The notes under the pieces are model-generated. The model worked only from the letters and a program-made list of their open reading frames with translations, was not told where the DNA came from and ran no database searches. Both the position numbers and the translations under genes were made by a program. Of a stretch of 64,000 bases of DNA, positions 21,729 to 39,451 are shown one piece after another. Origin of the DNA: Salinisphaera hydrothermalis C41B8 (lineage in GTDB: Bacteria > Pseudomonadota > Gammaproteobacteria > Nevskiales > Salinisphaeraceae); contig NZ_APNK01000004.1 of the NCBI RefSeq assembly GCF_000732535.1, forward strand, positions 124,001 to 188,000. Reading direction: 5' to 3'. The first letter of the stretch is position 1. Each line of letters starts with the position of its first letter.

Positions 21729-21729
21729 C

Positions 21730-22816: not shown

Positions 22817-23577
22817 TGGCGGCCGCGGCATCCCAGACGCCTATGGCCGAGGACGCGGTGCTTACCGCGACCGGCCTGCGCAAGCGCTACAAAGGGCGCG
22901 ACGTGGTACGCGATGTCGATCTGCGTGTGGCGCGAGGCGAAGTCGTCGGGCTGCTCGGGCCCAACGGGGCCGGCAAGACCACGTCGTTCTACATGATCGT
23001 GGGGCTGGTGACGCCGGACAGCGGCACCCTCGACCTGGGTGGGCACAATCTCGTCGGCCTGCCGATGCATCGACGGTCGCAGATGGGCATTGGCTATCTG
23101 CCCCAGGAAGCCTCGGTATTCCGCAAGCTGACCGTTGCCGACAATATCCGGGCCATTCTGCAGGTTCGGAAGGACCTGGACCGGGCCGGCATCGAACGCG
23201 AGCTTTCGGAGCTGCTCGATGAGCTTTCGATCGGCCATATCGCCGACTCCAAGGGCCTGAATCTGTCCGGCGGCGAACGGCGGCGGGTGGAAATCGCCCG
23301 CGCGCTGGCCGCTCGACCCACCTTCATGCTGCTGGACGAGCCGTTCGCGGGCATCGATCCGATCTCGATCGGCGATATCCGCAGCATCATCCGTCATCTA
23401 CAGAATCGTGGCATCGGCGTGCTGATCACCGACCACAACGTTCGTGAGACCCTGTCGATCTGCGACCGGGCTTATATCCTGGCCGACGGCTCGGTCATTG
23501 CCGAAGGCCAGGGGGAGCATATCCTGGCCGATCAGAAGGTCCGCGACGTCTATCTCGGCGAGGACTTTCGGCTATGA
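22816..23577 (+). CDS. lptB: LPS export ABC transporter ATP-binding protein LptB
   Basis: ATPase that powers LPS extraction from the inner membrane. The 253-residue protein contains Walker A ([15 protein letters not shown]), the Q-loop region [14 protein letters not shown] typical of LptB, the signature [15 protein letters not shown] and Walker [14 protein letters not shown] short N-terminal extension (about 14 residues, [14 protein letters not shown]) precedes the domain; the ATG at 22843 may be the real start. It is followed by rpoN with a 4-bp overlap. Confidence 0.97.
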
Positions 23578-25028: not shown

Positions 25029-25082
25029 CCCCGAACGCATGTTAATCCTTGTTCGTCCACACACGCTGCCAAGGAGTACGCG

Positions 25083-25409
25083 ATGAACCTGAACATCTCC
25101 GGCCACCACGTCGATATGACCAATGCCCTGCATCAGTACGTGGCCTCAAAGATGGAACGCATCGAGCGCCATTTCGATCATGTGCTCGACGCCGAAGTGG
25201 TTCTCGAAGTCGAAAAACTACGGCACAAGGCCGAGGTGACCATGCAACTCCGGGGTGCGACGCTGCACGCCGAGGCCACCAAGGAAGATATGTACGCCGC
25301 CATCGACTGCATGGTCGACAAGCTCGATCGCCAGACGCTGCGGCACAAGGAAAAAGCCTGCGATCATCACAATCGCCAGGCGCGTCACATCGATATGAGC
25401 ACGGACTAG
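25083..25409 (+). CDS. hpf: Ribosome hibernation promoting factor (short form)
   Basis: Binds the 30S subunit to inactivate ribosomes in stationary phase. The 108-residue protein has only the S30AE domain (MNLNISGHHVDMTNALHQYVASKMERIERHFD) with no C-terminal dimerisation domain, so it is the short HPF type used together with RMF. An AAGGAG Shine-Dalgarno precedes the ATG. It lies between rpoN and ptsN as in E. coli. Confidence 0.97.
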   Translation: MNLNISGHHVDMTNALHQYVASKMERIERHFDHVLDAEVVLEVEKLRHKAEVTMQLRGATLHAEATKEDMYAAIDCMVDKLDRQTLRHKEKACDHHNRQARHIDMSTD

Positions 25410-25428
25410 CCGTTCGACGCCCATCATC

Positions 25429-25893
25429 ATGAATATCGCCGATATCGTCGCGCCCGATCGGGTCCAGCTCGCCGCCGACGTGCAGTCCAAGAAACGTGCC
25501 CTGGAACAGCTGGCCGATATCCTGGCCGAGGGCACGCCTTACCTGACCGCCGCCGACGTATTCAACGGGCTGATCGGCCGTGAAAAACTCGGCAGTACCG
25601 GCGTGGGGGATGGCGTGGCCATTCCCCACGCGCGCCTCAAAGGCATCGACGACTGCATTGGCGCCTTTATTCGTTTGCCGCAGGGCGTGGATTTCGAAGC
25701 CACCGACGACCAGCCGGTGGATCTGATCTTCGGTCTTCTGGTGCCCGAAGACGCGACCGACGAGCACTTGAAACTGCTGCGCCAACTCGCCGAGATCTTC
25801 TCCGAAGCCGACACGCTCTCCGATCTGCGTGAAGCTGGCGACGACCGCAGCCTCTATCGCGCCCTGCTCGATCACGACACGATCGTCATATAG
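25429..25893 (+). CDS. ptsN: PTS IIA-like nitrogen-regulatory protein PtsN (EIIA-Ntr)
   Basis: Terminal phosphoacceptor of the nitrogen PTS, controlling potassium and nitrogen metabolism by its phosphorylation state. The 154-residue protein is a complete EIIA of the fructose/mannitol type with the phosphorylated His in GDGVAIPHARLKG (about residue 66). It is followed at 34 bp by hprK. No PTS sugar permease is present in the window, so the phosphorelay here is probably purely regulatory. Confidence 0.97.
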   Translation: MNIADIVAPDRVQLAADVQSKKRALEQLADILAEGTPYLTAADVFNGLIGREKLGSTGVGDGVAIPHARLKGIDDCIGAFIRLPQGVDFEATDDQPVDLIFGLLVPEDATDEHLKLLRQLAEIFSEADTLSDLREAGDDRSLYRALLDHDTIVI

Positions 25894-25927
25894 CCCCGCG
25901 CCCCACGCGATCACGGACCGCCCGCCT

Positions 25928-26926
25928 ATGGACAACCCCCGCGCCGAGGCCCGCGAGGACGCTGATCGACGGGTCGACATCGAAACGCTGTACGAGCGGC
26001 TGGCCGACTCGCTGCAGCTGCGCTGGCCGGAACCGACGATCGGCGCGGCCGGCACGCTGGGGGCCACCCAGCACGGCGGTTGGCGCGTGCCGACCGTGGG
26101 CTATCTCAATTTCATTCACCCACCGCAGGTGCAGATCGTCGGCCATCCGGAAATCGCTTATCTGGCCGGGCTGTCCGATGAACTCGCTGTGCATCTGCGG
26201 CACCAGCTGACCGAAGGCGCCACCCGGCTGGTCGTGGTCGCCGACGCGCAAACCCTGCCGGCTTATCTTCACGACGCCCTGCGCGCAGCCGGCATCGCCG
26301 TGTTTACAACCCCGACCAGCGGCCATCACGTCGCCTATCGACTGCGCCATTTTCTCGGCGAGACCCTGGCCCGCCAGATCACCCTGCACGGCGTGTTCCT
26401 GGAAGTGCTGTCGATCGGCCTGCTGCTGGTGGGCGACCCCGGCGTGGGCAAATCCGAACTCGCGCTGGAACTCATCAACCGCGGCCATCGACTGGTGGCC
26501 GATGACGCCCCCGAATTCGTGCTGCTCGGCCCCGACGATCTCAACGGCGGCTGCCCGCCCTTGTTGCAGGATTTTCTGGAAGTTCGCGGGCTCGGCATTC
26601 TGAACATCCGGGCCATGTTCGGCGAGGCCGCCATCAAACGCCGTAAGCAGCTTGGCCTGATCATCCGTCTCGTGCGCGGTGATACCGGCGACGCCACGCC
26701 GCCGGATCGCTTGACCGGCGCCCGCGCCACGCGCGAAATTCTGGATACCTCTATACCCGAGATCACATTGCCCGTGGCCGTCGGACATAACCTGTCGGTG
26801 CTAGTGGAAGCCGCCGCACGCGATCATCTGCTGCGCATGCAGGGCCAATACAGTGACGAACAGTTCGCCGCACGCCAGGCCCAGGTCATCGGCGCAGACC
26901 CGACAGGAGTAAGTTCATGCGACTGA
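25928..26926 (+). CDS. hprK: HPr kinase/phosphorylase
   Basis: Bifunctional enzyme that phosphorylates and dephosphorylates HPr on Ser46. The ATG at 25928 gives 332 residues; the frame is open upstream, but that part lies within ptsN. The P-loop LLLVGDPGVGKSELAL is at about 166-181, followed by the HPr kinase block NRGHRLVADDAPE, and the C-terminal signature (EVRGLGILNIRAMFGE) is present. The HPr encoded at 28629 keeps Ser46. The order ptsN-hprK-rapZ-EIIA-HPr-EI is also known from Xanthomonas-type genomes. It overlaps rapZ by 10 bp. Confidence 0.96.
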   Translation: MDNPRAEAREDADRRVDIETLYERLADSLQLRWPEPTIGAAGTLGATQHGGWRVPTVGYLNFIHPPQVQIVGHPEIAYLAGLSDELAVHLRHQLTEGATRLVVVADAQTLPAYLHDALRAAGIAVFTTPTSGHHVAYRLRHFLGETLARQITLHGVFLEVLSIGLLLVGDPGVGKSELALELINRGHRLVADDAPEFVLLGPDDLNGGCPPLLQDFLEVRGLGILNIRAMFGEAAIKRRKQLGLIIRLVRGDTGDATPPDRLTGARATREILDTSIPEITLPVAVGHNLSVLVEAAARDHLLRMQGQYSDEQFAARQAQVIGADPTGVSSCD

Positions 26927-27774
26927 TCGTCGTCAGCGGGCTGGCCGGCGCCGGTAAATCCGTGGCGCTGAACATGCTCGAAGACCTGGGCTATTACTGC
27001 ATCGACAACCTGCCGCTGGGCCTGCTGCGTGAAGTCTCGGCGGACACGCTGCGCCGCCAGGGGCTGGATTTCGATCGGCTCGCGATCGGCGTGGACTCAC
27101 GCGCCCGGCAAACTGAGATCGCCGAATTCAGCGAACGCATCGATGCGCTTCGCAGTGACGATCTCGATATCGAGATCATCTATCTCTATGCCGACGAAGA
27201 CACCATCCTGCGGCGCTACTCCGAGACCCGGCGCAAGCACCCGCTATCCAACGATCAGCGCTCGCTGATTGATGCGGTCGCGCTCGACACCGAACTCACG
27301 CAGCCCATCGCCTCCAAGGCCGATATCTCGATCGATACCAGCCGACTGAACATCCATCAGCTGCGCGACATCATCCGCAACCGCGTCGAAGGCTCGTCCA
27401 GCGGCGAATTGTCGATCCTCGTCCAGTCGTTCGGTTTCAAGTACGGCCTGCCGCCCGCGGTCGATTTCGTGTTCGACGTGCGCTGCCTGCCCAATCCGCA
27501 CTGGGTTCCGGAGTTGCGCGCGCTGACCGGTCAGGACGCGGCCGTAGCCGAGCATCTGGCCGCGCAACCGGCGACCCACGAAATGCGCGACGATATCGTG
27601 CGCTTTCTTACCCGCTGGCTACCCGACTTCGCGCGTGAGGACCGAACCTATATTACGGTCGCGATCGGCTGTACCGGCGGCAAGCATCGCTCGGTCTACC
27701 TTGCCGAGCAGATCACCGAACATTTACGGCGCCAGTACGCGAACGTCCTGGTCCGCCATAACGAACTGCACTGA
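26917..27774 (+). CDS. rapZ: RNase adapter protein RapZ
   Basis: RNA-binding adaptor; in E. coli it binds the small RNAs GlmY and GlmZ and delivers GlmZ to RNase E, adjusting glucosamine-6-phosphate synthase. The 285-residue protein has the N-terminal P-loop VVSGLAGAGKSVALNMLED (residues 4-22) and the well-conserved C-terminal domain (FKYGLPPAVDFVFDVRCLPNPHWVP, then IGCTGGKHRSVYLAEQITEHL). It follows hprK by overlap. No GlmY/GlmZ gene is known in this window, but see the tandem hairpin RNA at 37644. Confidence 0.97.
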   Translation: MRLIVVSGLAGAGKSVALNMLEDLGYYCIDNLPLGLLREVSADTLRRQGLDFDRLAIGVDSRARQTEIAEFSERIDALRSDDLDIEIIYLYADEDTILRRYSETRRKHPLSNDQRSLIDAVALDTELTQPIASKADISIDTSRLNIHQLRDIIRNRVEGSSSGELSILVQSFGFKYGLPPAVDFVFDVRCLPNPHWVPELRALTGQDAAVAEHLAAQPATHEMRDDIVRFLTRWLPDFAREDRTYITVAIGCTGGKHRSVYLAEQITEHLRRQYANVLVRHNELH

Positions 27775-28168
27775 TTGCGACGGACGCCCGGCATCACGTT
27801 CGCTGTCGCGAGATCGAGCCGCCGGCCTCGCCGGGTTGAGTGCCGCGCCGGCAGGCATGAACGGAACACGACAACGCCCATTCAAGGCGTATCGATCATC
27901 GCGGTATGGGCTTGGCCGCAACCCAGCACGGTAGCGCAGGACGGACGCGTTTTCCGGGGTTATCGTCGTCCGGCGTCGCGCGGGCGCCGTTTCGTCTACC
28001 GTCACAACCGCACGCTTGGCGGGCACCGAACCTCAGCGCGCCAGCGTCTGAGCTCCAAGTGCGTCGCGCCTGGCCTGTCGTAAGCGAAATGCTGTGCGAT
28101 AGTCGATGTCGAATCTGCCGCCGACACGGTTGGCCCACGCCGGGCCGTGTTCAAACCCGCGATAATCC
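27775..28168. other. 394-bp intergenic region between rapZ and the EIIA-Man gene
   Basis: No gene with convincing codon use, start or similarity is seen on either strand. A weak extended -10 (TGCGATAGT, about 28092-28100) lies 69 bases before the next ATG and may serve manX-ptsH-ptsI. GC-rich short inverted repeats are present, but none is followed by a T-run. The size is unusual for this otherwise tightly packed block. Confidence 0.4.
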
Positions 28169-28591
28169 ATGACCACTGACATGCCCTCTGCGACCCCGGA
28201 ACCGATGCCCGGCCTGATCCTGGTCGGCCATGCCGGCCTGCCGGAGGCGCTGCTGGCGGCCGCGCGCCACGTAATCGGCGCGCTGGTTCGGCCGACCCGC
28301 ATCATCAGTGTTTCAGCCAAAGACGATCCCGAAGGCGTCGAGCGCGATGTGGCCGCGGCCATCGATGCGCTGGACAGCGGCGCGGGCGTGCTGATACTCA
28401 TCGATGTCATGGGGGCGACGCCGTATCGGATTGCGCATGCCGCAGCACAGAACCGTGACCGGGTCGCGCTCGTTACCGGAGCGAATCTGGCCATGCTGAT
28501 CCGCAGCTACAACTATCCGGGCATGAGCCTGGCTGAACTGGCCGAATCCGCGGTGGCAGCGGGCCAGCGCAGCGTGGCGCGCGTGCATTGA
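28169..28591 (+). CDS. PTS EIIA component, mannose family
   Basis: Free-standing EIIA of the mannose family, likely a regulatory phosphoacceptor rather than part of a sugar permease, since no EIIB/C/D genes accompany it. The 140-residue product has the phosphorylatable His21 in LILVGHAGLPEALL and the second family block VLILIDVMGATPYRIAHAAA. A second in-frame ATG at residue 5 (28181) could also serve as the start. It leads the EIIA-HPr-EI set that follows rapZ. Confidence 0.92.
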   Translation: MTTDMPSATPEPMPGLILVGHAGLPEALLAAARHVIGALVRPTRIISVSAKDDPEGVERDVAAAIDALDSGAGVLILIDVMGATPYRIAHAAAQNRDRVALVTGANLAMLIRSYNYPGMSLAELAESAVAAGQRSVARVH

Positions 28592-28628
28592 TCATCCACT
28601 GGTTACCACAACAAACAAGAGCCAACTC

Positions 28629-28898
28629 ATGCCAACTCGCGATTTGTCGATCGTCAACAAGCTGGGCCTCCATGCACGCGCGGCCAGTAAATTCGTCACG
28701 GTCGCCTCGCAGTTCGAATCGCGCATCACCGTGACCAAGGACGGCCGCGAGGTATCGGGGAAATCGATCATGGGCGTGATGATGCTCGCAGCCGCACGCG
28801 GCAGCACCATTCATGTGAGTGCCGAGGGAGACGACGCCAACGAAGCGCTGGATGCCCTCGATGCCCTGGTTGCCGATCGCTTCGGCGAGGCCCAGTGA
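28629..28898 (+). CDS. ptsH: Phosphocarrier protein HPr
   Basis: Carries phosphate from EI to EIIA domains. The 89-residue protein has the active His15 in NKLGLHARAAS and the regulatory Ser46 in SGKSIMGVMML, at exactly the classical positions. The presence of HprK makes Ser46 phosphorylation likely. The gene begins 37 bp after the EIIA gene and ends 37 bp before ptsI. Confidence 0.97.
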   Translation: MPTRDLSIVNKLGLHARAASKFVTVASQFESRITVTKDGREVSGKSIMGVMMLAAARGSTIHVSAEGDDANEALDALDALVADRFGEAQ

Positions 28899-28935
28899 TC
28901 GTGCCGCGGCGCACGCCGACACCGGGCGGTTTCCG

Positions 28936-30675
28936 ATGAGTCTTTGGCTGTCGGCCATTGGCGCCTCGCGCGGGGTCGCGATCGGGCCCGTGCATCGCAT
29001 GCATGGCACCGATCTGGATATTCCCGAGTACCATATCGGCGCCGAGGCGATCGAGGACGAGATCGCGCGCTTCAACGCCGCCGCGCGCGAAGCGCGTGAA
29101 CAGCTGGCCGCGGTGCGCGATCAGATTCCGGCCAACGCCCCATCCGAAATCGGCGCTTTCATCGAGACTCATCTGTTGATGATGGACGATGCGGCACTGA
29201 TCGAGACGGTGACCGCGCGAATCCGCGATGATCGGGTCAACGCTGAATGGGCGCTCAAACTGCAGGCCGAGGAACTGATCGACGTCTTCGAGCAGATGGA
29301 CGACAGTTATCTACGCACCCGGCGCGACGATATCGCTCACGTGACCGCGCGGCTGCAGCGTGTCTTGCTCAATCAGGAACACCCGATCGGCGGCTGCCCC
29401 ACCGACGAGGCCGGCCCACGGCCGGTCATCGTCGCCGACGAACTCACGCCGGCCGATATCATCCTGTTGCACCAGCAGGGCGTGGCTGCGGTGGTCACCG
29501 AACACGGCGGGCCGCTGTCGCACAGCGCGATTCTGGCGCGCAGCCTGCGTATCCCGGCGTTGATGGGCGCCGTGGGCGCGCGTCGCATCCTCGCCGACGA
29601 AGAAAACGTCATCGTCGACGGCGAGGCCGGCCATCTGCTGGCTGATCCCGACGAAGCGGCGCTTGCCTTCTACCGGCATCGACAACAGCGCGACGCACGC
29701 TACCAGCGCATGCTCGCCGTGCTGCGCGACGAAGACGCGGTCTCCGCTGACGGCGTGCGTGTGACCATGCTCGCCAACGTCGAACTGCCCGGCGATGCGA
29801 TCGAGGCCGGCAAGGTCGGCGCCGAGGGGGTCGGACTGTATCGCACCGAGTTCCTGTTCATGAATCGCGACGATTCGCCGAGCGAGGACGAGCAGTTCGA
29901 GGTCTACCGCCAGGTGGTGGCCGCGATCGACGGCCCGGTCACCATTCGTACGCTGGACGCCGGGGCCGACAAGAGTCTCGGCCGGCCGGACAAGGTCTCG
30001 CCGAACCCGGCCCTCGGCCTGCGCGCGATCCGACTCTGTCTCAAGGAAACCGCGCTGTTTCGCACCCAGCTCCGGGCGTTGCTGCGGGCCTCGGCCGAGG
30101 GGCGCATGCGCATCATGCTGCCCATGATCTCTACCGTGTCCGAAATACGCCAGGCGCGTCATCTCATCGGCGAGGTCGCCGCGGAACTGGATGACGAGGG
30201 CATCGCCTACGATCGCGATCTGCCGGTGGGCGCCATGATCGAAGTCCCGGCAGCGGCGCTGGCCGCGCCGACGCTCGCGCGCTACTGCGACTTCTTCTCG
30301 CTGGGTACCAACGACCTGATCCAGTACACCCTGGCCATCGATCGTATCGACGACGAGATCAATTATCTCTACGACCCGCTGCATCCGGCCGTACTGGGGT
30401 TGATCCGCATGACGATCGACGCCGGGCGCGCGGCCGGCATCGGCGTATCGATGTGCGGCGAAATGGCCTCGGACAAGCGCTATACCCCACTGTTGCTGGG
30501 GCTCGGTCTGACCGAATTCTCCATGCATCCGGCCAGCGTGCTCGAAGTCAAACGCGCGGTCATGGGGGCGGATGTAGATCGGTTGCGCCGGCGCACGGCC
30601 GAAATTCTTTCCCTGACCGACGCCAATACCTACCGCGAGGCGCTCGACGGGCTCACGCGCGAGAGCATCGACTAA
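28936..30675 (+). CDS. ptsI: Phosphoenolpyruvate-protein phosphotransferase (PTS enzyme I)
   Basis: Starts the phosphorelay by taking phosphate from PEP. The ATG at 28936 gives 579 residues beginning MSLWLSAIGASRGVAIGP; the frame is open further upstream, but that part overlaps ptsH in another frame. The phospho-His is His196 in EHGGPLSHSAILAR. The PEP-binding TIM barrel is recognisable from GLYRTEFLFMNRD and FFSLGTNDLIQYTLAIDR, and the Cys of the C-terminal loop is in GVSMCGEMASD. There is no N-terminal GAF domain, so this is EI rather than the EI-Ntr (PtsP) type. Confidence 0.96.
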   Translation: MSLWLSAIGASRGVAIGPVHRMHGTDLDIPEYHIGAEAIEDEIARFNAAAREAREQLAAVRDQIPANAPSEIGAFIETHLLMMDDAALIETVTARIRDDRVNAEWALKLQAEELIDVFEQMDDSYLRTRRDDIAHVTARLQRVLLNQEHPIGGCPTDEAGPRPVIVADELTPADIILLHQQGVAAVVTEHGGPLSHSAILARSLRIPALMGAVGARRILADEENVIVDGEAGHLLADPDEAALAFYRHRQQRDARYQRMLAVLRDEDAVSADGVRVTMLANVELPGDAIEAGKVGAEGVGLYRTEFLFMNRDDSPSEDEQFEVYRQVVAAIDGPVTIRTLDAGADKSLGRPDKVSPNPALGLRAIRLCLKETALFRTQLRALLRASAEGRMRIMLPMISTVSEIRQARHLIGEVAAELDDEGIAYDRDLPVGAMIEVPAAALAAPTLARYCDFFSLGTNDLIQYTLAIDRIDDEINYLYDPLHPAVLGLIRMTIDAGRAAGIGVSMCGEMASDKRYTPLLLGLGLTEFSMHPASVLEVKRAVMGADVDRLRRRTAEILSLTDANTYREALDGLTRESID

Positions 30676-30793
30676 TCCATGGCGGGTTTGCTTTCATACC
30701 GGCCGCGGGCCCGGCCACGGGTATGAGCGGCTGAAAAAAAGCCCGGTTTTCGCTATGTTGTAACTCTGCCCGCCCCACTGCCAAGGCCGTCGC

Positions 30794-32158
30794 ATGAGCG
30801 AGCCCGCCGTCAAGACCGATGTGCTCGAAGAGCGCCTGGCCTCGCTGGATGCGGCCCTGCAATCGGGCCGCATGCGTCGGCTCAAACCGATGCTGGCCTC
30901 GCTGTCGCCAGCCGAAATCGCCCTCTTCCTGGAGTCCATCCCGCGCGCCAAGCGTGAAGTGGTCTGGGCACTCGTACCCGACGAGGATCACGGCGAAACG
31001 CTGCTGCACGTCAACGACGAGGTGCGCGCCGAACTGATCGATTCGCTCGACCGCGAGACACTGCTCGCGGCGACCGAGGGCATGCCGATCGACGATCTGG
31101 CGGATCTGGTCGAAGACCTGCCCGAGCAGGTCACGCGCGAAATGCTGCGCTCGATGGACGTGCAGAATCGCGAGCGGCTCAAGGTCGTGATGTCCTACGC
31201 GCCGGATTCAGCCGGCGGCCTGATGAACAACGACACCATCACGGTCCGTCCGGACGTCTCACTGGACGTGGTGTCGCGTTATCTCAAGCAGCGCGCCTCG
31301 CTGCCCGACGATACCGATGCGTTGTTCGTGGTCTCGCGCTATGGCCGCTACCTCGGCATGCTGCCGCTGGCCAAGCTGGTCACGCTCGATCCCGAGCGCG
31401 ATGTTTCGGAGGTGATGAACACCGATATCGACGCGCTGGCGGTGGACATGCCGGCCGCACAGGTCGCCAAACGGTTTCAGGACCTGGACTTGATCTCGGC
31501 GCCGGTCGTGGACCCGGAAGGCGGCCTGGTCGGCCGGATCACGATCGACGACGTGGTGGACGTGATTCGGGACGAAGCCGAGCACAGCATCATGAGCCTG
31601 GCCGGTCTCGACGAGGAAGAAGACGTGTTCGCACCGATCGGACGCAGCGCGCGCCGGCGCGCGATCTGGCTCGGCACCAATCTCGCCACGGCGTTCCTGG
31701 CGTCGGAAGTGGTGGGGCTGTTCTCGGACGCCTTGTCCAAGATCGTGGCGCTGGCCGTGCTGATGCCGATCGTCGCCAGCATGGGCGGCATCGGCGGCTC
31801 GCAAACACTCACGCTGATGATTCGCGGCCTGTCGCTCGGCCAGATCGGCTTTGCCAACGCTCGCGCCCTGCTGGTCAAGGAGCTGGCCGTCGCACTCATC
31901 AACGGCATTCTGTGGGGCGTGGTGGTCGGCGGCATCGCCTTCGTCTGGTTCCACCAGCTCGGTCTCGCCGTGATCATGGCGGCCGCGCTGGTCATCAACC
32001 ATCTCAACGCGGCCGTGACTGGTGTCGCCATCCCGCTGGCGATGAAGAAGATGGGCATCGATCCGGCGCTGGCCGGCTCGGTCGTGCTGACGACCTTTAC
32101 CGACGTCATCGGCTTCGCGTCCTTCCTCGGCCTGGGCACCCTGTTTCTGTTGCACTGA
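30794..32158 (+). CDS. mgtE: Magnesium transporter MgtE
   Basis: Mg2+-gated channel in the inner membrane. The 454-residue protein has the N-domain with its helical repeats (residues about 20-130), the PDSAGGLMNNDTI segment that starts the CBS pair (about 135-255), a connecting helix, and a C-terminal membrane domain with five hydrophobic helices including the conserved GGIGGSQTLTLMIRGL. Position after ptsI is typical for genomes with the hprK-type arrangement. A weak sigma-70-like promoter (CTGAAA, 17 bases, TATGTT) lies at about 30733-30761. Confidence 0.95.
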   Translation: MSEPAVKTDVLEERLASLDAALQSGRMRRLKPMLASLSPAEIALFLESIPRAKREVVWALVPDEDHGETLLHVNDEVRAELIDSLDRETLLAATEGMPIDDLADLVEDLPEQVTREMLRSMDVQNRERLKVVMSYAPDSAGGLMNNDTITVRPDVSLDVVSRYLKQRASLPDDTDALFVVSRYGRYLGMLPLAKLVTLDPERDVSEVMNTDIDALAVDMPAAQVAKRFQDLDLISAPVVDPEGGLVGRITIDDVVDVIRDEAEHSIMSLAGLDEEEDVFAPIGRSARRRAIWLGTNLATAFLASEVVGLFSDALSKIVALAVLMPIVASMGGIGGSQTLTLMIRGLSLGQIGFANARALLVKELAVALINGILWGVVVGGIAFVWFHQLGLAVIMAAALVINHLNAAVTGVAIPLAMKKMGIDPALAGSVVLTTFTDVIGFASFLGLGTLFLLH

Positions 32159-32193
32159 TCCGGCGTATCACCCGCGGCCGGGCGCCCACCCCA

Positions 32194-33558
32194 TCACTGC
32201 CCGGCGATGGTCATCCGATCGATCACCACCGAGGGCGTGCGCAGCGCGCTCTGATATTCGACGTCATTGCCCAGGGCGGCGATGCCGTTGTACATCTCGG
32301 CCAGATTACCGGCGACGGTCGCATTCTCGACTGGATAGGCCAGCTCGCCGTTTTCTACCCACCAGCCGGCCGCCCCGCGCGAATAATCGCCGTTGACCAG
32401 ATTCACGCCCTGGCCCATCAGCTCGGTGACGACCAGCCCGCGGCCCATGGCCGAAACCAACGTCTCGAAGTCATCCTGCCCCGGCGCCACATCGACGTTG
32501 AATACGCCGCCGGCATTACCTGTGGTCGTGAGCCCCAGTCGGCGCGCGGAATAGGCCGAGAGCAAATAGGATCGCAGCACGCCGCCGGCGACCAGGTCGC
32601 GTTCGGTGGTCGCCACGCCGTCGTCATCAAACCCGGTGCTGGCCAGACCGTGACGACGATGCGGCACCTGACGCAAGGTCAGCGTGGGCACGGCGATACG
32701 TTGATCGATGCGGTCTTTGAGAAAACTGGCATTGCGATACAGCGAGCCACCGCTGATCGCGCCAAACAGATGCCCCCAGAGGCTGCGCGCGACGCGCGGC
32801 GTGAACAGTACCGGCGCGGTCGTGGTCGGCACAGCGCGCGCGCCCAACCGGGCCAGCGCACGATCGGCCGCTAGCCGTCCGATCTCGGCGGGCGCCAACA
32901 ATTCCTCGGCGCGTCGAGCCTGGGAGAACGCGATCTCGCGCTGCATCCGGCCGTTGCTGTCGCGCGCAATCGCGGTACAGGACGCCGCATGACGACTGGC
33001 GCGCTCGATACCGATAAAACCATGGCTGTTGCCATAGGCGCTGATCGCGTCCTGGGTGGCCACTGTCGCGCCCTCGGTCTGGGCGATGCGCGCGTCGGCA
33101 TCCAGCGCCGCGGCTTCCACGGCCAACGCCATATCCTGGGCGGCGTCCGGGGTCAGCGACCACGGGTTGTAGAGCGCCAGATCCGGCCAGTCGCGCGCCA
33201 TCAGATGCGCCTCGGCTAGGCCGGCGTATTCGTCGGGCTCGGTGAAGCGCGCAATGGTCAGGGCCTGATCGAGCGCCGCCGCCAGGCCGGCGGGCGTGAG
33301 GTCAGTGGTCGAAGCGCTGCCGCTGGCTTGGCCCCGATAGACGGTGACTGCCGCGCTTCGATCGCCTTCGTATTCGAGCGTTTCCCGCGCCCGATCACGT
33401 ACCGAGACCGACAAGCTGCGCGAGGCCGACAGACTGGCCTCGGCGGCATCCGCGCCTGCCCGGGCGGCCCGTGCCAGCATCGAGTTCAACGACTCGCGCA
33501 AGGCGTCCGATGTCGGCAGTTCGCGGGTATCGGCAGAGACGACGGCAGGCTCGGTCAT
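32194..33558 (-). CDS. pmbA: Metalloprotease PmbA (TldE)
   Basis: Partner subunit of the TldD/TldE protease, which processes microcin precursors and the CcdA antitoxin in E. coli. The 454-residue protein carries PmbA/TldE features: VSVRDRARETLEYEGDRSAAV near the N-terminus, then the mid-protein GVATTERDLVAGGVLRSYLLS and the C-terminal RGAAGWWVENGELAYPVENATV. The zinc-binding HExxxH of TldD is absent, as expected for the E subunit. It is divergent from glrK across 94 bp and convergent with mgtE. Confidence 0.95.
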   Translation of the reverse strand: MTEPAVVSADTRELPTSDALRESLNSMLARAARAGADAAEASLSASRSLSVSVRDRARETLEYEGDRSAAVTVYRGQASGSASTTDLTPAGLAAALDQALTIARFTEPDEYAGLAEAHLMARDWPDLALYNPWSLTPDAAQDMALAVEAAALDADARIAQTEGATVATQDAISAYGNSHGFIGIERASRHAASCTAIARDSNGRMQREIAFSQARRAEELLAPAEIGRLAADRALARLGARAVPTTTAPVLFTPRVARSLWGHLFGAISGGSLYRNASFLKDRIDQRIAVPTLTLRQVPHRRHGLASTGFDDDGVATTERDLVAGGVLRSYLLSAYSARRLGLTTTGNAGGVFNVDVAPGQDDFETLVSAMGRGLVVTELMGQGVNLVNGDYSRGAAGWWVENGELAYPVENATVAGNLAEMYNGIAALGNDVEYQSALRTPSVVIDRMTIAGQ

Positions 33559-33565
33559 GCAGGAT

Positions 33566-33575
33566 TGTCCGGACA
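33566..33575. promoter_or_regulatory. Palindrome TGTCCGGACA in the pmbA-glrK divergent gap
   Basis: A perfect 10-bp palindrome, TGTCCGGACA, lies 7 bp before the pmbA start codon. It shares the TGTC/GACA half-sites of GlrR boxes but without the 10-bp spacer, so it may bind another dimer or be chance. No regulator can be named. Confidence 0.25.
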
Positions 33576-33652
33576 GTCAAACCGCCAAAATAGCCGTCTC
33601 GCCGTGGCCCGCGCAATACGCGTGCGCGCCGCCTAGCGGTTATGCTGGCGCC

Positions 33653-35146
33653 ATGCCGCGACACGACCCTCACAACAAGACTTCGGCACACCGCCGCCTG
33701 CTTGGCGTTCTACTGCGGCCGCGCTCGATCAACGGCCTGGTCCTGGCCAGCTTCGCGGTCGTGGCGACACCCCTGATGGTCGCGATCGTGGCCAGCGTGG
33801 TGTACGTGAACCGTCTCAATACACAGAGCGAGCGCCTGGTGATGCAAGGCGTCGCCGTCACCCGCGACAGCAAGCGGCTCAATAGCCTGCTGATCGGCAT
33901 GGAACGCAGCGCTCGCCAGTATCGCGTGCTCGGCAGCGACGATTTGCTGCAACGCTTTGCGAGCCAGGCCAAGGATTTCGAAACCGAATTGAAGTCCCTG
34001 GCGAGTTTGCATTTGGACACGGTGCCGAGCTGGAATCTATCGAAACTGCGCACGCAGGTGGCCTCGCTGGCGACGCAACTCGGCACCGGCGATCAACAGA
34101 CCAACAATGTGATCGCGACGTTGAACAGCATCCGCGATGCCACCGACGCGATCGCCGATCAAGGCACGCAGTTCGTCGACCAGGAACTCGATCGCCTGCA
34201 GAGCACCGCCCGTCATGCCCGACTATTTCTACTGGTCTGCGTGTTCGCCCTGATTCCCGCGGCAATCGCACTTGGGTTATTTTTAACCTTCGTGATAACG
34301 CGGCCGTTACGCCAGATCCTGGATGCGGTCGCGCACTTGGGAACGGGTGATTTTTCGCGGCCGGTTTCGATCGTCGCTCCGGCGTCGGAGCTCGATCGGC
34401 TGGGCGAACGCCTGGACTGGATGCGCCAGCGGCTGGCCACGCTCGATGAGGAGAAACAGCAGTTCATCCGACATATGTCGCACGAACTGAAGACGCCGCT
34501 CGCCAGTATTCGCGAAGGAACGGAACTACTCGCGGACGGCTCGGTTGGGCGGTTGAGCCAGGAACAACATGAAGTCGCCACGATTCTGCAGAGCAACAGT
34601 CAGGATCTGGCGACGCTGATCGACAATCTTTTGAATTCCGCGGCGTGGCAGCAGCAGCGGTCCCGGTTGGAGTACGCGGAATGCGATCTGGCCGCGCTGA
34701 TCGCACGCATGATCGAACGCCAGAAGCTGGCCATCGAGGCACGTGGCCTAAACGTCGAGCGCCCACGCTCGTCCGTTTGGCTGACAGCGGATGCGGATCG
34801 CCTGCATTTGATCGTCGATAATCTGCTGGCCAACGCGGTCAAGTATTCGCCGGCCGGCGGCACCATCCGTATCGAGGTCGAGCACGACACGCGAGGGGGG
34901 ACGGATTTATATGTATCGGATGATGGGCCAGGCGTGGCGCCGGCCGAACGCGAACGTATCTTCGAGGCTTTCGTGCGCGGCAGCAGCACGCCCGGCACCG
35001 CCTCGGCCGTCAAGGGCACGGGCATTGGACTCTCGGTGGTTCGCGATTGTGCTCAAGCACATGGCGGACATGCCGACGTGGTCGAGCGTGGCGGCTGCCG
35101 CAGTGTTTTTCATGTCTATATTCCGCCCCAGAATGCGCTGGCCTGA
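33653..35146 (+). CDS. glrK: Sensor histidine kinase GlrK (QseE-like)
   Basis: Inner-membrane sensor kinase. The start at 33653 gives 497 residues with two transmembrane segments (about 27-52 and 190-214) enclosing a helical periplasmic domain of about 135 residues, then a HAMP domain, the H-box FIRHMSHELKTPLASI (His277), the N-box DNLLANAVKYSPAGG and the G-box VSDDGPGVAP. The frame is open further upstream but that part overlaps pmbA. The next two genes encode a QseG-like lipoprotein and GlrR, so the set matches E. coli glrK-qseG-glrR, an envelope-stress-related system controlling small RNAs. The stimulus here is unknown. Confidence 0.88.
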   Translation: MPRHDPHNKTSAHRRLLGVLLRPRSINGLVLASFAVVATPLMVAIVASVVYVNRLNTQSERLVMQGVAVTRDSKRLNSLLIGMERSARQYRVLGSDDLLQRFASQAKDFETELKSLASLHLDTVPSWNLSKLRTQVASLATQLGTGDQQTNNVIATLNSIRDATDAIADQGTQFVDQELDRLQSTARHARLFLLVCVFALIPAAIALGLFLTFVITRPLRQILDAVAHLGTGDFSRPVSIVAPASELDRLGERLDWMRQRLATLDEEKQQFIRHMSHELKTPLASIREGTELLADGSVGRLSQEQHEVATILQSNSQDLATLIDNLLNSAAWQQQRSRLEYAECDLAALIARMIERQKLAIEARGLNVERPRSSVWLTADADRLHLIVDNLLANAVKYSPAGGTIRIEVEHDTRGGTDLYVSDDGPGVAPAERERIFEAFVRGSSTPGTASAVKGTGIGLSVVRDCAQAHGGHADVVERGGCRSVFHVYIPPQNALA

Positions 35147-35687
35147 GAAGCGCAGCGGGCACGCACTTCTTGCTGCGCTGGGGCTCGCCCTGAGCCTGGC
35201 GACGACCGGCTGCGCACACGAGGAGGCCCGCCCCCCGCATGCGTCGCAACAAACCTCGACGGAACTGTCGGCCCCGGCCCTGACCCTACTCGGCTATGCA
35301 CGCCGTCTGGCCCGGACCACGCCGGCCGGTCGCGAAGCCGCCGTGCGCGCCGCGCGGCGCCAGGTCCGCACGGCCCCTGGCGCGGTATCCTATGCCTATC
35401 TCGCACTGGCGCTCGGCTCGCCGCATCAACGGCTCTACACACCCGACGAGGCGGCGCGGTATGCGCGCCTGGCGCTCGATACCAAGCCGGCCCCTTGGGA
35501 CCCGGATGCGCGCCAATACTTAAGCGACTACGCCCGCTTGTATGGCGAACTCACTCAGGATGACGAGACCGACGAGGCCGACCGCCAAATCGCGGACCTC
35601 AAGTCCCGCTTGTCCAACGCGCAGAACAAACTCAAGGCGCTATCGCATATCGAAGATCGCCTGGATACCGTCGAGAATCGTCCGTGA
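35112..35687 (+). CDS. qseG: QseG-like lipoprotein
   Basis: Probable lipoprotein partner of the GlrK sensor. A signal peptide with lipobox LATTGC leads to a lipidated Cys near residue 34 (about 27 from the alternative ATG at 35133, which gives a more typical signal peptide, MRWPEKRSGHALL). The mature part is about 158 residues and largely helical, ending in a coiled-coil-like segment (DRQIADLKSRLSNAQNKLKA). Sequence similarity to E. coli QseG is not obvious by eye; the name rests on position between glrK and glrR. It overlaps the end of glrK, and its TGA stop overlaps the GTG start of glrR. Confidence 0.75.
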   Translation: MSIFRPRMRWPEKRSGHALLAALGLALSLATTGCAHEEARPPHASQQTSTELSAPALTLLGYARRLARTTPAGREAAVRAARRQVRTAPGAVSYAYLALALGSPHQRLYTPDEAARYARLALDTKPAPWDPDARQYLSDYARLYGELTQDDETDEADRQIADLKSRLSNAQNKLKALSHIEDRLDTVENRP

Positions 35688-37048
35688 CCGAACACCGCAA
35701 AGGCCGCCTGCTACTGGTCGACGACGACCCCAGCCTTCGTCGACTGATGACCATTCGACTCGAGGGCGTCGGCCACACCGTGGCCAGCGTCGAAAGTGCC
35801 GACCGGGCGCTCGAAGTGCTGGGCGAATTCGGTGCCGAATGCGTCATCACCGACCTGCGCATGGACGGCATGGACGGGCTCGATCTGTTGCAGCGCCTGT
35901 CGATCAATCATCCCAACGTCCCGGTGATCGTCATCACCGCGCACGGCACCATCCCGGATGCAGTCTCGGCCACTCAGGCCGGCGCGCTCGACTTCCTGGC
36001 CAAGCCCGTCGACAAAGAAACGCTTCTGGCACGCGTCGACCAGGCGCTGGCCCAGGGCGGCATGCCGGCGCGTGATTGGGACAGTATCTGGCAAGCACGC
36101 ATCGTCACCCGCTCGCCCATGATGCGGGAACGCCTGGCCGAAGCCCGCATGGTGGCCGAAACCGACAGCAGCATTCTGATTACCGGCGAATCCGGCACCG
36201 GCAAGGAAGTCATGGCGCGGGTCATGCACGAAGCCAGTCCGCGCGCGGAACATTCGTTCGTGGCACTGAACTGCGGGGCCATGCCCGAACAATTGCTCGA
36301 GTCCGAGTTGTTCGGCCATGAAAAAGGCGCATTCACCGACGCTAAGAGCGCGCAACCCGGGCTGTTTCGCTCGGCCGAAGGCGGCACCATATTTCTGGAC
36401 GAAATCGGCGACATGCCGATCGCGCTTCAAGTCAAACTCTTGCGCGTATTACAGGAACGCGAAGTCCGGCCGGTCGGCGGTCGCCACAGTATCCCGGTGG
36501 ATGTGCGTGTCATATCGGCCACCCATCGCAATTTGGATGAGGCAATCGCCGAAGGCGCGTTCCGGGAGGATCTGTACTATCGTCTCGCCGTCGTGAGCCT
36601 CGCCCTGCCCTCGCTGGCGCAGCGTCCTGAGGATATTGCGCCGTTAGTGCGTCATTTCCTCGACCGCCTCGCCCGCCGCGCCGGCCAGCGGCCAAAGGTT
36701 TATGCGCCCGATGCCATGGAGCGACTGACGGCATACACCTGGCCGGGCAATATCCGTCAGTTGTCGAATGTGGTCGAACATAACGTCGCTCTCACCCGCG
36801 GCCCCGTGATCGGACGTGCGGCCGTGGACAAGGCCCTGGCCCAACACGGCGACCCCGACGCCTCGACCTCCAGCATCCGCCCTCTGGCCCAGGCTCGCGA
36901 CGAGTTCGTCCACGATTATCTCGTCCAGCTGCTGCGGATTACGGAAGGCAACGTCGCGCGTAGTGCCCGACTGGCACAGCGCAACCGTACCGAGTTCTAC
37001 AAGCTGTTGAACCGTCACGCCATCGACCCGGCGCAATTCAAACATTGA
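35684..37048 (+). CDS. glrR: Sigma-54-dependent response regulator GlrR (QseF-like)
   Basis: Two-component activator of sigma-54 promoters. The 454-residue protein has a receiver domain (acidic residues DDD 13-15, phospho-Asp57 in VITDLRM, Lys107), an AAA+ domain with Walker A GESGTGKE (168-175), the sigma-contacting loop GAFTDA (215-220, where most activators have GAFTGA), Walker B GTIFLDEIGDM, and a C-terminal Fis-type HTH (GNVARSARLAQRNRTEFYKLL). It starts with GTG overlapping the qseG stop. Two TGTT/CGTT-N10-GACA sites resembling GlrR boxes lie just downstream of its stop, before a sigma-54 promoter. Confidence 0.92.
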   Translation: MTEHRKGRLLLVDDDPSLRRLMTIRLEGVGHTVASVESADRALEVLGEFGAECVITDLRMDGMDGLDLLQRLSINHPNVPVIVITAHGTIPDAVSATQAGALDFLAKPVDKETLLARVDQALAQGGMPARDWDSIWQARIVTRSPMMRERLAEARMVAETDSSILITGESGTGKEVMARVMHEASPRAEHSFVALNCGAMPEQLLESELFGHEKGAFTDAKSAQPGLFRSAEGGTIFLDEIGDMPIALQVKLLRVLQEREVRPVGGRHSIPVDVRVISATHRNLDEAIAEGAFREDLYYRLAVVSLALPSLAQRPEDIAPLVRHFLDRLARRAGQRPKVYAPDAMERLTAYTWPGNIRQLSNVVEHNVALTRGPVIGRAAVDKALAQHGDPDASTSSIRPLAQARDEFVHDYLVQLLRITEGNVARSARLAQRNRTEFYKLLNRHAIDPAQFKH

Positions 37049-37054
37049 ATCGCC

Positions 37055-37118
37055 TGTTGCCTGTAGACGACAACGACCTGCGCTGTTCCCGTCTCAAGCG
37101 TTGCTTTTTGACGACAAC
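37055..37118 (+). promoter_or_regulatory. Two GlrR-box-like direct repeats (candidate upstream activator sites)
   Basis: Site 1 (37055-37072) is TGTT-N10-GACA and site 2 (37099-37116) is CGTT-N10-GACA. The known E. coli GlrR site is TGTC-N10-GACA. The two 20-bp stretches also resemble each other directly (GTTGC-T-T--GACGACAAC) and are 44 bp apart, about four helical turns. They lie about 160-220 bp upstream of the sigma-54 promoter, a normal distance for activator binding. An AT-rich stretch at 37117-37150 could accommodate bending (for example by IHF). Confidence 0.55.
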
Positions 37119-37159: not shown

Positions 37160-37186
37160 AACCGTCTCCAATTGGCGACGGTTTTT
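37160..37186 (+). terminator. Rho-independent terminator after glrR
   Basis: ACCGTC (37161-37166) pairs with GACGGT (37077+100 to 37182, i.e. 37177-37182), loop TCCAATTGGC, followed by TTTTT. It ends the glrK-qseG-glrR operon and insulates it from the downstream sigma-54 promoter. Confidence 0.75.
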
Positions 37187-37249: not shown

Positions 37250-37277
37250 CATGATTTTAAAAAACATTAAAATCATG
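37250..37277. promoter_or_regulatory. 11-bp-arm palindrome adjoining the sigma-54 promoter
   Basis: CATGATTTTAA (37250-37260) is a perfect inverted repeat of TTAAAATCATG (37267-37277), loop AAAACA. The right arm runs into the -24 element of the sigma-54 promoter (37276-37291), so a protein bound here would compete with sigma-54 polymerase. It could be a repressor operator. No binding protein can be named. Confidence 0.5.
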
Positions 37278-37291
37278 GCACAGGGGTTGCT
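37276..37291 (+). promoter_or_regulatory. Sigma-54 promoter (-24/-12)
   Basis: TGGCACAGGGGTTGCT is a near-perfect match to the sigma-54 consensus (TGGCAC-N5-TTGCW) with the invariant GG (37277-37278) and GC (37289-37290) correctly spaced by ten bases. Predicted start of transcription is about 37302, 35 bases before the EF-hand ATG. Sigma-54 (rpoN) and the activator GlrR are both encoded in this window. Confidence 0.88.
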
Positions 37292-37336
37292 ATACAGAGA
37301 CTTAGATTCGGACAAAAAACGGCACCTGACGCACTG

Positions 37337-37627
37337 ATGACGAACTTCCTCGCGGTCCTGACGGCGGCTCTATTACTCGCTGGCCCCTGGGTCGCGGGAT
37401 ATGCCGGCACCCAGGACGGCGCGGCCCATGCCCCGGCGGCTTGGGCGTCCATGGACGCCAATAGCGATGGGGCGTTGACTCGCGACGAAGTCGCGACGAC
37501 GCCATGGGCTCAGAAGTTCGACCAGATGGATGCGAACGGTGACGGCAAAGTGACGAAAAAGGAGTTCAAGCAGTACGAACGACACATGAAACGCCGGCAG
37601 GCTGAAAGCCAAAACGGCGGTTCGTGA
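37337..37627 (+). CDS. Small exported EF-hand protein
   Basis: A 96-residue protein with an N-terminal signal sequence (hydrophobic residues about 4-22) and two complete 12-residue EF-hand loops: DANSDGALTRDE (40-51) and DANGDGKVTKKE (65-76). Both have acidic residues at positions 1, 3, 5 and a Glu at position 12, so Ca2+ binding in the periplasm is likely. The tail is basic (HMKRRQAES). The gene is preceded by a sigma-54 promoter and follows glrR, so it is probably GlrR-regulated. The Shine-Dalgarno is poor, so translation may be weak. It could be a calcium or envelope-stress sensor; the function is unknown. Confidence 0.8.
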   Translation: MTNFLAVLTAALLLAGPWVAGYAGTQDGAAHAPAAWASMDANSDGALTRDEVATTPWAQKFDQMDANGDGKVTKKEFKQYERHMKRRQAESQNGGS

Positions 37628-37643
37628 TTCGTTGCAAAGTGTT

Positions 37644-37840
37644 CGCGTGATTACGCGATACGGTTTCGCCTGGTCGGGCCGGTTCCCCCGGTCCCCCCTC
37701 GTGCCTCGGCGTTAACGGCCCGGCCAGTGCGATTTAAACCGCCATCCACGTAATCATGCACCCGTTTCGCCGGTCGGGTCGGAGTTTCTCCCGGTCCCCC
37801 CCTCGTGCCTCGGCGTAGCCCGGCCCGACGCGGCGAATTA
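37644..37840 (+). ncRNA. Candidate structured RNA: two tandem 100-nt hairpin units
   Basis: Two units, offset by exactly 100 nt, each begin with a short TTTCGCC-containing stretch and then form a strong hairpin. Unit 1: stem 37671-37681 with 37716-37726 (11 bp, one G-U). Unit 2: stem 37773-37782 with 37820-37829 (10 bp, one G-U). The stems differ in sequence but remain paired, while the loops share CCCGGTCCCCCC and TCGTGCCTCGGCGT. A terminator at 37878-37902 follows on the same strand. The sigma-54 promoter at 37276 is the nearest clear promoter, so the RNA may be the 3' part of the EF-hand transcript or processed from it. The loops are C-rich and could pair with G-rich ribosome-binding sites. 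I match it to no known RNA family. Confidence 0.55.
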
Positions 37841-37877
37841 ACGATAAGAAATAGCTCAGGCTGTTATCAGCCCCTCG

Positions 37878-37902
37878 AGGCCGCCTTGCGCGGCCTTTTT
37901 TT
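37878..37902 (+). terminator. Rho-independent terminator after the tandem hairpins
   Basis: AGGCCGC (37878-37884), loop CTTGC, GCGGCCT (37890-37896), then a run of seven T (37896-37902). It is a strong terminator for plus-strand transcription, so a transcript from the sigma-54 promoter would be about 600 nt. The following gene, mpl, is on the other strand and ends at 38096. Confidence 0.85.
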
Positions 37903-38095
37903 ATGCACGACGTTCCGGCCCAGTGCTTCATCGGCACCAGCCGGCACCTCGCCCCGGACGGTTCGTAACCACGAGGCGCGGCATCTGTCGAAGTGTGATG
38001 GAAGTACGCCGAACGCGTCCCGGCAAACGAAGACGCCGATCATGCGGTACCACGCGGACCGCTACGCTCGCGGATCAGGACGCCCGATACAACGC

Positions 38096-39451
38096 TCAGT
38101 CGCGATCGGCCAATGCCGCAAGCAGCTTGTCGTGAATCCCGCCGAACCCGCCATTGCTCATCACGATCACGACATCATCGGGCCGTGCATCCGCGGCGAT
38201 CGCAGCCACCAGGGCGTCGACATCGTCGATCGCCTGGAAGCGGTCACCGAGCGGCGCCATGGCATGCGCCAGATCCCAGGTGATGCCGGCGTCGTAGCCG
38301 TAAACCCGGTCGGCGTATTCGAAACTGGCAGCCAGGGTAGCCTCATGGACACCGGCACGCATGGTGTTCGAACGTGGCTCGAACGCCACGAGTATCCGGC
38401 CACGCTCGCGGCTCGCGGCCACGCCCTCGAGCGTGGTCCGAATAGCCGTTGGGTGATGAGCGAAATCGTCATAGACCGCGACGCCGCCTGGCGTGCCGCG
38501 CAGCTCCAGACGCCGTTTGACGCCGTGGAAGCGGCCGAGCGCTGCGATCGCCGCCGTGGGCTCGATACCCGCATGCTCCGCCGCCGCGATCGCCGCACAG
38601 GCGTTGGCCGCGTTATGTGCGCCTTTGAGTGCCCAGTTCAATTCGCCGACCGTCGCGTCGCCCTGGCGAATGCGCAGCTGACCGTAATCCGGGCTCAGCG
38701 GCTCAACATGCCAGCCAGCCGCGCCGTTGAACGCGACCCGCGGAGTCCAGCAGCCTTGCGCAATCACCGCATCGAGCGCCGTATCGGCCGCGTTATGCAC
38801 GATGCATCCCGAGCCGGGCACGGTCCGCAGCAGGTGATGGAACTGCCGTTGAATCGCCGCGAGATCGTCGAATATATCGGCGTGATCGAATTCGAGATTG
38901 TTGAGAATGAGCGTCCGCGGGCGGTAATGGACGAATTTCGATCGCTTGTCGAAGAAGGCCGTATCGTATTCGTCGGCTTCGACCACGAAGAACTTCGAGT
39001 CGCCCAGCGCCGCCGACGTACCGAGATCGGCCGCAATCCCGCCGATCAACCAGCCCGGTGCCAACCCCTGATCAATCAGGATATGGGCCAGCATGCTCGC
39101 CGTCGTGGTCTTGCCATGGGTGCCGGCCACCGCCAGCACCCAGCGGCCCGCGAGGACGTTGTCGGCCAACCACTGCGGCCCGGAGGTATAAGCCAGGCCT
39201 CGATCGAGCATGGCTTCTACCGCCGGGTTGCCGCGCGCCATGGCGTTGCCCACCACCACCTGGTCCGGCGCCGGCTCGAGATGCGCCGGGTCGTACCCTT
39301 CCATCACGTCGATACCGGCTTCAGCCAGCTGGGTGCTCATGGGCGGATACAGGCCCTGGTCGGACCCGGTCACCTCGTGCCCGGCAGCGCGTGCCAGCAA
39401 CGCCACCCCGGCCATGAAGGTGCCGCCGATTCCCAGAATATGGATATGCAT
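38096..39451 (-). CDS. mpl: UDP-N-acetylmuramate:L-alanyl-gamma-D-glutamyl-meso-diaminopimelate ligase
   Basis: Peptidoglycan recycling ligase that attaches the recovered tripeptide to UDP-MurNAc. The 451-residue protein begins with the Mpl-type sequence MHIHILGIGGTFMAGVALLA, has the ATP loop VAGTHGKTTTASMLAHIL near residue 110, and VVEADEYDTAFFDKRSKFVHYRPRTLILNNLEFDHADIF, which distinguishes Mpl from MurC. No neighbouring recycling genes are present. Confidence 0.97.
   Translation of the reverse strand: MHIHILGIGGTFMAGVALLARAAGHEVTGSDQGLYPPMSTQLAEAGIDVMEGYDPAHLEPAPDQVVVGNAMARGNPAVEAMLDRGLAYTSGPQWLADNVLAGRWVLAVAGTHGKTTTASMLAHILIDQGLAPGWLIGGIAADLGTSAALGDSKFFVVEADEYDTAFFDKRSKFVHYRPRTLILNNLEFDHADIFDDLAAIQRQFHHLLRTVPGSGCIVHNAADTALDAVIAQGCWTPRVAFNGAAGWHVEPLSPDYGQLRIRQGDATVGELNWALKGAHNAANACAAIAAAEHAGIEPTAAIAALGRFHGVKRRLELRGTPGGVAVYDDFAHHPTAIRTTLEGVAASRERGRILVAFEPRSNTMRAGVHEATLAASFEYADRVYGYDAGITWDLAHAMAPLGDRFQAIDDVDALVAAIAADARPDDVVIVMSNGGFGGIHDKLLAALADRD

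Follow-up and report, generated by a model that had tools for sequence, protein, structure and literature searches.

A tandem array of C-run-loop hairpins between glrR and mpl in Salinisphaera, a probable structured RNA with a sigma-54 promoter

The stretch of DNA that we analysed (the window) is 64,000 nucleotides from Salinisphaera hydrothermalis C41B8, whose genome is assembled as 4.28 Mb in 91 contigs. Two hairpins lie between glrR and mpl in the window and are followed by a terminator (Table 1). The earlier note on this DNA had described the hairpins and the terminator. It did not mention the sigma-54 promoter, the sites of GlrR type, or the EF-hand gene that shares the hairpins' strand, nor that the number of hairpins varies. 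We take the regulator gene to be glrR, given its gene order with a QseG-like lipoprotein (identified by eye) and what is known of the family. A kinase frame with HisKA and HATPase_c domains is at 33344-35146. Within 17 kb (20230-37048), the window also has kdsD/kdsC, lpt genes, rpoN, hpf, ptsN, an hprK-like gene, rapZ, a ptsI-like gene, an mgtE-like gene, and glrK-qseG-glrR. This appears to be a cluster of envelope and sigma-54 genes; the names were mostly assigned by eye, while searches covered rapZ, the glr genes, and mpl.

Table 1. Features around the hairpin array, in window positions
Feature	Position	Strand	Basis or remark
glrR/qseF-type response regulator, presumed activator	35684..37048	+	Pfam Response_reg (E 2.2e-29) and Sigma54_activat (E 1.5e-72)
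Activator site 1, TGTTGCCTGTAGACGACA, fits TGTN12ACA	37055..37072	+	exact match
Candidate activator site 2	37099..37116	+	one mismatch; many relatives have a perfect site near -177
Candidate activator site 3	37163..37180	+	two mismatches; relatives have palindromic sites near -113
Sigma-54 (-24/-12) promoter, TGGCACAGGGGTTGCT	37276..37291	+	TGGCACN5TTGCT pattern
Gene for a small EF-hand protein, after the promoter and before the hairpins	37337..37627	+	EF-hand Pfam matches
Hairpin unit 1	37664..37733	+	R1 77.1 bits (unit belongs to R1's own alignment); fold; covariation
Loop core of unit 1, CGGTCCCCCCTCGTGCCTCG	37689..37708	+	alignment A1; C6
Hairpin unit 2	37765..37837	+	R1 72.8 bits (unit belongs to R1's own alignment); fold
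Loop core of unit 2	37792..37812	+	alignment A1; C7
Intrinsic terminator, predicted RNA end	37877..37902	+	GC-rich stem (37877-37897) and T tract
mpl	38096-39451	minus	convergent, beyond the array

The stems of both units can be read from the letters where the earlier note had placed them: 11 pairs in unit 1 (37671-37681, TGGTCGGGCCG, with 37716-37726, CGGCCCGGCCA) and 10 pairs in unit 2 (37773-37782, GTCGGGTCGG, with 37820-37829, CCGGCCCGAC). In the predicted fold, both stems lengthen further at the base. The units are not offset by exactly 100 nt, as had been claimed, but by 101 nt (unit starts), 102 nt (stem starts), or 104 nt (loop anchors). The fold of the whole region has z = -6.3 relative to dinucleotide shuffles, none of which was equally good (0/200), and the single units have z = -3.0 (0/200 shuffles) and z = -2.8 (2/200). 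Hairpins in the spacers between units are uneven, with z from +1.2 to -5.1 relative to base shuffles (24 spacers); processing by RNase E between the units is just an idea.

A DNA search matched the array in all 14 Salinisphaera genomes, including the one that the window comes from. At the level of the family, 15 of 17 genomes were matched; the two that were not, G015 and G016, are from a third genus. The 14 genus genomes yielded 38 units, with two to five per genome, which we aligned (alignment A1) and used to build a covariance model (R1), as the earlier note had proposed. With stricter filters, R1 matched 15 of 85 genomes from the order, namely the 14 members of the genus and one genome from a sister genus (G014), and 3 of 369 genomes from the class, all within the genus. 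Inside the 14 genus genomes, the only R1 matches (E up to 0.001, under the stricter filters) are the 38 array units, at one locus per genome, which sets them apart from dispersed repeats. The neighbors are conserved as well (by tblastn): mpl follows the array in all 14 genus genomes and in G014, and glrR is directly before the promoter in 13 of the 14, while in the remaining genome (G006) the contig begins 357 nt ahead of the promoter. In G006, units 3-5 hardly differ from each other, which suggests a recent duplication.

A scan of named genomes for the loop pattern found 12 stretches: 9 from Salinisphaera, 1 titled Endozoicomonas sp. G2_2, and 2 that are unrelated. The Endozoicomonas contig (NZ_JAGHQU010000007.1; L049) carries the array, and its title is probably wrong. 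We attribute the two unrelated matches, from Aquisphaera and Nocardiopsis, to chance, as R1 covers only their loop letters (22.1 and 18.0 bits); the Nocardiopsis stretch also has a weak full-length match to R1 (16.2 bits). There were no matches to the loop pattern in viral contigs.

The array does not look like coding sequence. Across the genus the spacing of the units is 97-116 nt and in most cases is not divisible by 3, which means that the arrays have no shared reading frame from end to end. The earlier note's statement that no good frame covers the hairpins holds in this sense, but some arrays do hold stop-free frames, as expected for GC-rich DNA. Its strong terminator is present as a GC-rich hairpin and T tract that reach 37902, and a GC-rich hairpin with a T tract follows the last unit in all 14 genus genomes (at least six T in 13 of them, and five in G012). 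However, a terminator scan found one terminator, as compared to 1.6 expected from shuffles, so the terminator is weak evidence by itself. By eye, an A-rich stretch lies ahead of the terminator (37838-37870) and in the same place in G009 and G010 (AAAAACAACAAGAACC in G010). In these three genomes it resembles Hfq-binding ARN repeats.

In the consensus structure from RNAalifold, an internal loop separates the long stem from a small inner helix. For a test of covariation we considered its 20 pairs in the 35 distinct units (698 cells) and found that 94.7% of the cells are paired. If the partners are slid by 1-3 columns, then pairing falls to 23-45% (at most 44.6%); sliding preserves the relatedness of the units, and the structure, having been derived from the same alignment, is favored over the slid versions. 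Furthermore, 10 of the 20 pairs have both partners changed in one or more units, versus 6.8 in shuffles (4/500 reach 10), and 54 cells are changed on both sides, versus 17.5 in shuffles (0/500 reach 54), although relatedness inflates this shuffle control. The inner helix (columns 32-34 with 47-49) is invariant within the genus, so it has no support from covariation there. While the stems change, all 38 units share nearly the same loop core (CGGUCCCCCCUCGUGCCUCG), which in 36 of them is within 3 mismatches without gaps. The run of C's in the loop has a length of 5 in two units, 6 in 24, 7 in 10, and 8 in two.

As judged from these sequences, selection acts on the hairpins at the RNA level. The two units of the window had led the earlier note to propose a selected RNA structure on the plus strand, with stems that change and still pair around a nearly constant loop; in the relatives the stems are not lost, and the fold, the covariation, and the presence of the array in all 14 genus genomes agree with its proposal. 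Chance is excluded chiefly because of the conservation across these 14 genomes and the covariation. We conclude that the array is very probably a functional structured RNA.

In the sister genus (G014), two hairpins in a row stand between mpl and a QseG-like gene (identified by eye), which follows glrK. The inner helices of these hairpins (CGGU/ACCG and CGG/CCG) enclose loops with C5 and C6. Because G014 retains the helix and the C run, both outlast the GUGCC letters. The second hairpin, which is more diverged and has a C6 loop (L041, 3607-3658, minus strand), has its own sigma-54-like site, and a TGTN12ACA site lies 174 nt upstream of that site. This would fit a division of the array into two separate transcription units in G014.

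The promoter pattern TGGCACN5TTGCT occurs once in each of the 14 genus regions (5.9-10.5 kb each), in plus orientation and always upstream of the array. It is absent from the G014 locus, which has only weaker sigma-54-like sites, and the best GlrR homologue of G014 is on another contig. The 260 nt ahead of the promoter contain 23 TGTN12ACA sites across the 14 genomes, with at least one in each; in 500 shuffles the mean was 0.74 and the maximum was 5, but the shuffles maintain no more than the base composition, and sites are shared among related genomes. The sites cluster near -221, -177, and -113. For comparison, PMC6075780 reports that E. coli QseF binds three TGTN12ACA sites upstream of the sigma-54 promoter of glmY, a small RNA gene. 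In the genome of the window, just one of the three activator sites is without mismatch, which counts against control by GlrR. A loose pattern for the IHF consensus found a similar site in 5 of the 14 genus genomes. The array RNA is quite probably under the control of GlrR and sigma-54; its transcription, and the role of GlrR as the activator, are predicted from these sequence features.

We searched for GlrR in 17 other genomes from the family and the order and inspected what lies downstream of the nine closest homologues. Right after glrR, two of these loci (G018, L119; G075, L120), both in other families of the order, have a pair of GlrR-type sites together with a sigma-54-like site, and different genes come next. 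By eye, these are a small exported protein in G075 and, in G018, a small frame and one that resembles superoxide dismutase. No such sites were found at the other seven loci, which include G014; G081 has one sigma-54-like match a kilobase off. Given these two of nine loci, the place after glrR may generally be taken by a target of GlrR.

The earlier note knew of no RNA family with this loop, and a search of Rfam agrees: at the gathering score, the only match in the window is RNase P RNA (8695-9050, minus strand, 327 bits), and within 37250-37950 there are four weak matches with E up to 10, three of them over the terminator and none to 6C. Among openly licensed papers in PMC, judged chiefly by their titles, we found no publication on this Salinisphaera array, and the papers that treat GlrR together with GlmY concern enteric bacteria, again going by title.

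Sponge RNAs such as CsrB and RsmZ have repeated hairpins that share one loop motif (GGA) and titrate a protein. The array is similar in that its repeated hairpins have the same loop, but its loop core has no GGA (by eye, in alignment A1). Its placement is like that of NrsZ from Pseudomonas aeruginosa: according to PMC9308961, the NrsZ gene is directly after the gene for a sigma-54 response regulator (ntrC) and is induced by NtrB/C with RpoN, and a first stem-loop of NrsZ is a functional unit. NrsZ, which we compared by its description only, has the motif ACAGGCAG instead of a C-run loop, and its regulator is different. CrcZ from Pseudomonas is a precedent for a sigma-54-dependent decoy, as CrcZ requires RpoN and CbrA/CbrB and can sequester Hfq (PMC9308961); here too the likeness is one of description. 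The array fits the NrsZ/CrcZ kind in having a sigma-54 promoter and an RNA gene directly after the activator gene (13 of 14 genus genomes, with the contig of G006 beginning too late to show glrR); the sister-genus genome G014 is an exception. A sigma-54-dependent small RNA beside its activator is known, as with NrsZ, and what is new is the repeated C-run loop.

We propose that this locus of Salinisphaera is a noncoding RNA gene, which would be transcribed from the sigma-54 promoter and is probably activated by the neighboring GlrK/GlrR. The RNA would be a string of two to five hairpins, each with the same apical element: a run of C5-C8 and UCGU that is closed by a small helix (GGU/GCC), which in turn sits atop a long GC-rich stem. 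When GlrR is phosphorylated, presumably upon an envelope signal, the RNA would accumulate, and the identical loops could bind and titrate a partner that recognizes the loop, which is likelier to be a protein than an mRNA. It would act as a decoy in the manner of other sigma-54-dependent RNAs beside their activators and of the sponge RNAs. A multivalent decoy RNA that is induced by GlrR and sigma-54 is the reading that we tentatively adopt, as plausible but short of probable.

The main rival is a base-pairing small RNA of the 6C/B11 type (from Actinobacteria), whose C-run loops would block the translation of several mRNAs by base-pairing to G-tracts in their 5' leaders. We consider this somewhat unlikely. 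Hairpins with C-rich loops give 6C its name, and the array shares the feature of two or more hairpins with C6-type loops (at least six C's in 36 of 38 units and five in the other two). According to PMC10470900, B11 of M. abscessus has two such loops, which pair with G-tracts in leaders. One mRNA that is repressed through these C-rich loops carries six guanosines in the leader, as supported by restoring changes in the loop and the leader. The variable length of the C run in the array, along with the C5 and C6 loops in the sister genus, also fits pairing with G-tracts; a strictly sequence-specific protein might not tolerate a run of five to eight C's, whereas G-tract pairing would, and this counts against a decoy. 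On the other hand, the array has no match to 6C in Rfam (window and locus), it is from a different phylum, and unlike 6C, it has fixed extra letters in its loop (UCGUGCCUCG), up to five units, and a sigma-54/GlrR-type promoter.

Searches for complementary sites in the 14 genus genomes bear on this rival. The complement of the loop 20-mer (up to 3 mismatches) occurs at 38 places, 36 of which are in arrays and 2 elsewhere, versus 3 for the control. The complement of the loop 13-mer (up to 1 mismatch) occurs at 71 places, with 38 in arrays and 33 elsewhere, versus 39 for the reversed control; these 33 places include just two gene-sharing pairs, with sites inside long sense frames, which argues against pairing. 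We did find an excess of GAGGGGGG followed by ATG: there are 26 such places, of which 4 are the antisense of arrays and 22 are outside of arrays, while the reversed pattern gave 9. This excess is as predicted by the pairing rival, and it may also reflect ordinary ribosome-binding sites. No gene start is common to several species among the 25 of these 26 places that were read (one is near a contig edge). When all 26 were compared to each other, sharing was found only among pieces of the glr locus and for a weak pair (L206/L216) with 41% identity over 46 residues. glrK holds two of the places, one in the genome of the window and one in G003, but these are about 200 nt apart, so they are different sites, and none of the 11 other genus genomes that reach the window's place in glrK (G005 and G006 excluded) has a tract of five or more G's there. 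The earlier note had suggested a sponge for G-rich ribosome-binding sites; the lack of a shared GAGGGGGG-ATG gene start across species weakens this idea, although seeds of 6-7 bases may serve as contacts with mRNAs.

We prefer the decoy because near-identical loops are present in up to five tandem copies and because the invariant stretch, which reaches well past the C run, exceeds what a G-tract seed needs. We also prefer it over pairing with a single target because we found no conserved complementary site.

It is improbable, in our view, that the array is a functional counterpart of GlmY, with hairpins that bind RapZ, which would otherwise act on another RNA, so as to link GlrR to the supply of cell-wall precursors. 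The regulator and the promoter design are the same as for glmY of enteric bacteria, which is controlled by QseEF/GlrKR: both have a sigma-54 promoter with TGTN12ACA sites (in all 14 genomes for the array), and both are beside glrK-qseG-glrR. Also, rapZ is present in all 14 genomes (about 10 kb upstream in the window), and the GlmZ_SraJ model, which was positive for the E. coli control, matches none of the 14 genus genomes; GlmY's own model has no match in the window. However, the array has a different structure from GlmY and is located after glrR, while GlmY is before glrK. Nor do the RapZ proteins of Salinisphaera have a strongly basic tail: the last 19 residues of the 14 proteins contain 2-4 K/R, 1-3 D/E, and no SR (without alignment to E. 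coli RapZ). In the glmS leaders of 13 genomes we saw no common pairing with the loop, as judged by eye and without a control (the 14th glmS is in pieces). The array looks to be worked by the same kind of switch as glmY, but the circuit may be a different one.

The hairpins could instead be a 3' structure of the EF-hand mRNA, either a stability element or the source of a 3'-UTR small RNA, with a role that is tied to the protein. A recognizable EF-hand frame does lie between the promoter and the hairpins, on the same strand, in 9 of the 14 genus genomes. But tblastn did not detect it in the other five (G001, G005, G007, G009, and G012), and these have kept the promoter, the hairpins with their loops, and the terminator, with the first unit 111-304 nt past the promoter element. 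Because the promoter, hairpins, and terminator are in all 14 genomes and the EF-hand frame is in 9, the RNA seems to be the constant product and the EF-hand gene to be dispensable. Moreover, stability would not need an invariant loop. We therefore doubt this explanation strongly. EF-hand-like fragments between the promoter and the hairpins are visible by eye in G009 and G012 (L028 and L034), where the EF-hand gene appears to be decaying and the RNA to be kept.

Finally, a repetitive or mobile DNA element of the REP or MITE type without any RNA function is poorly supported and hardly credible: tandem near-copies such as those in G006 would fit, but there is one locus per genome in 14 genomes, always between the promoter and the terminator, and the stems covary.

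The decoy reading can be put in a more specific form, which we consider unlikely to be right in all of its parts: the array would be a lineage-specific sponge under the control of GlrR, its copy number (two to five loops) would set its capacity, it would titrate a putative protein that recognizes the closed C-run loop, and it would fill the regulatory slot of enteric glmY with an unrelated RNA.

In summary, the array adds an RNA family without a match in Rfam, defined by covariation and a regulated promoter, in a little-studied genus of halophiles. It suggests that GlrKR drives an RNA outside of the enteric bacteria, though not a related RNA. Any protein that the loops titrate would represent a new type of regulator, one that recognizes C-run loops, and in that case the natural series of two to five units would allow direct tests of dose and avidity.
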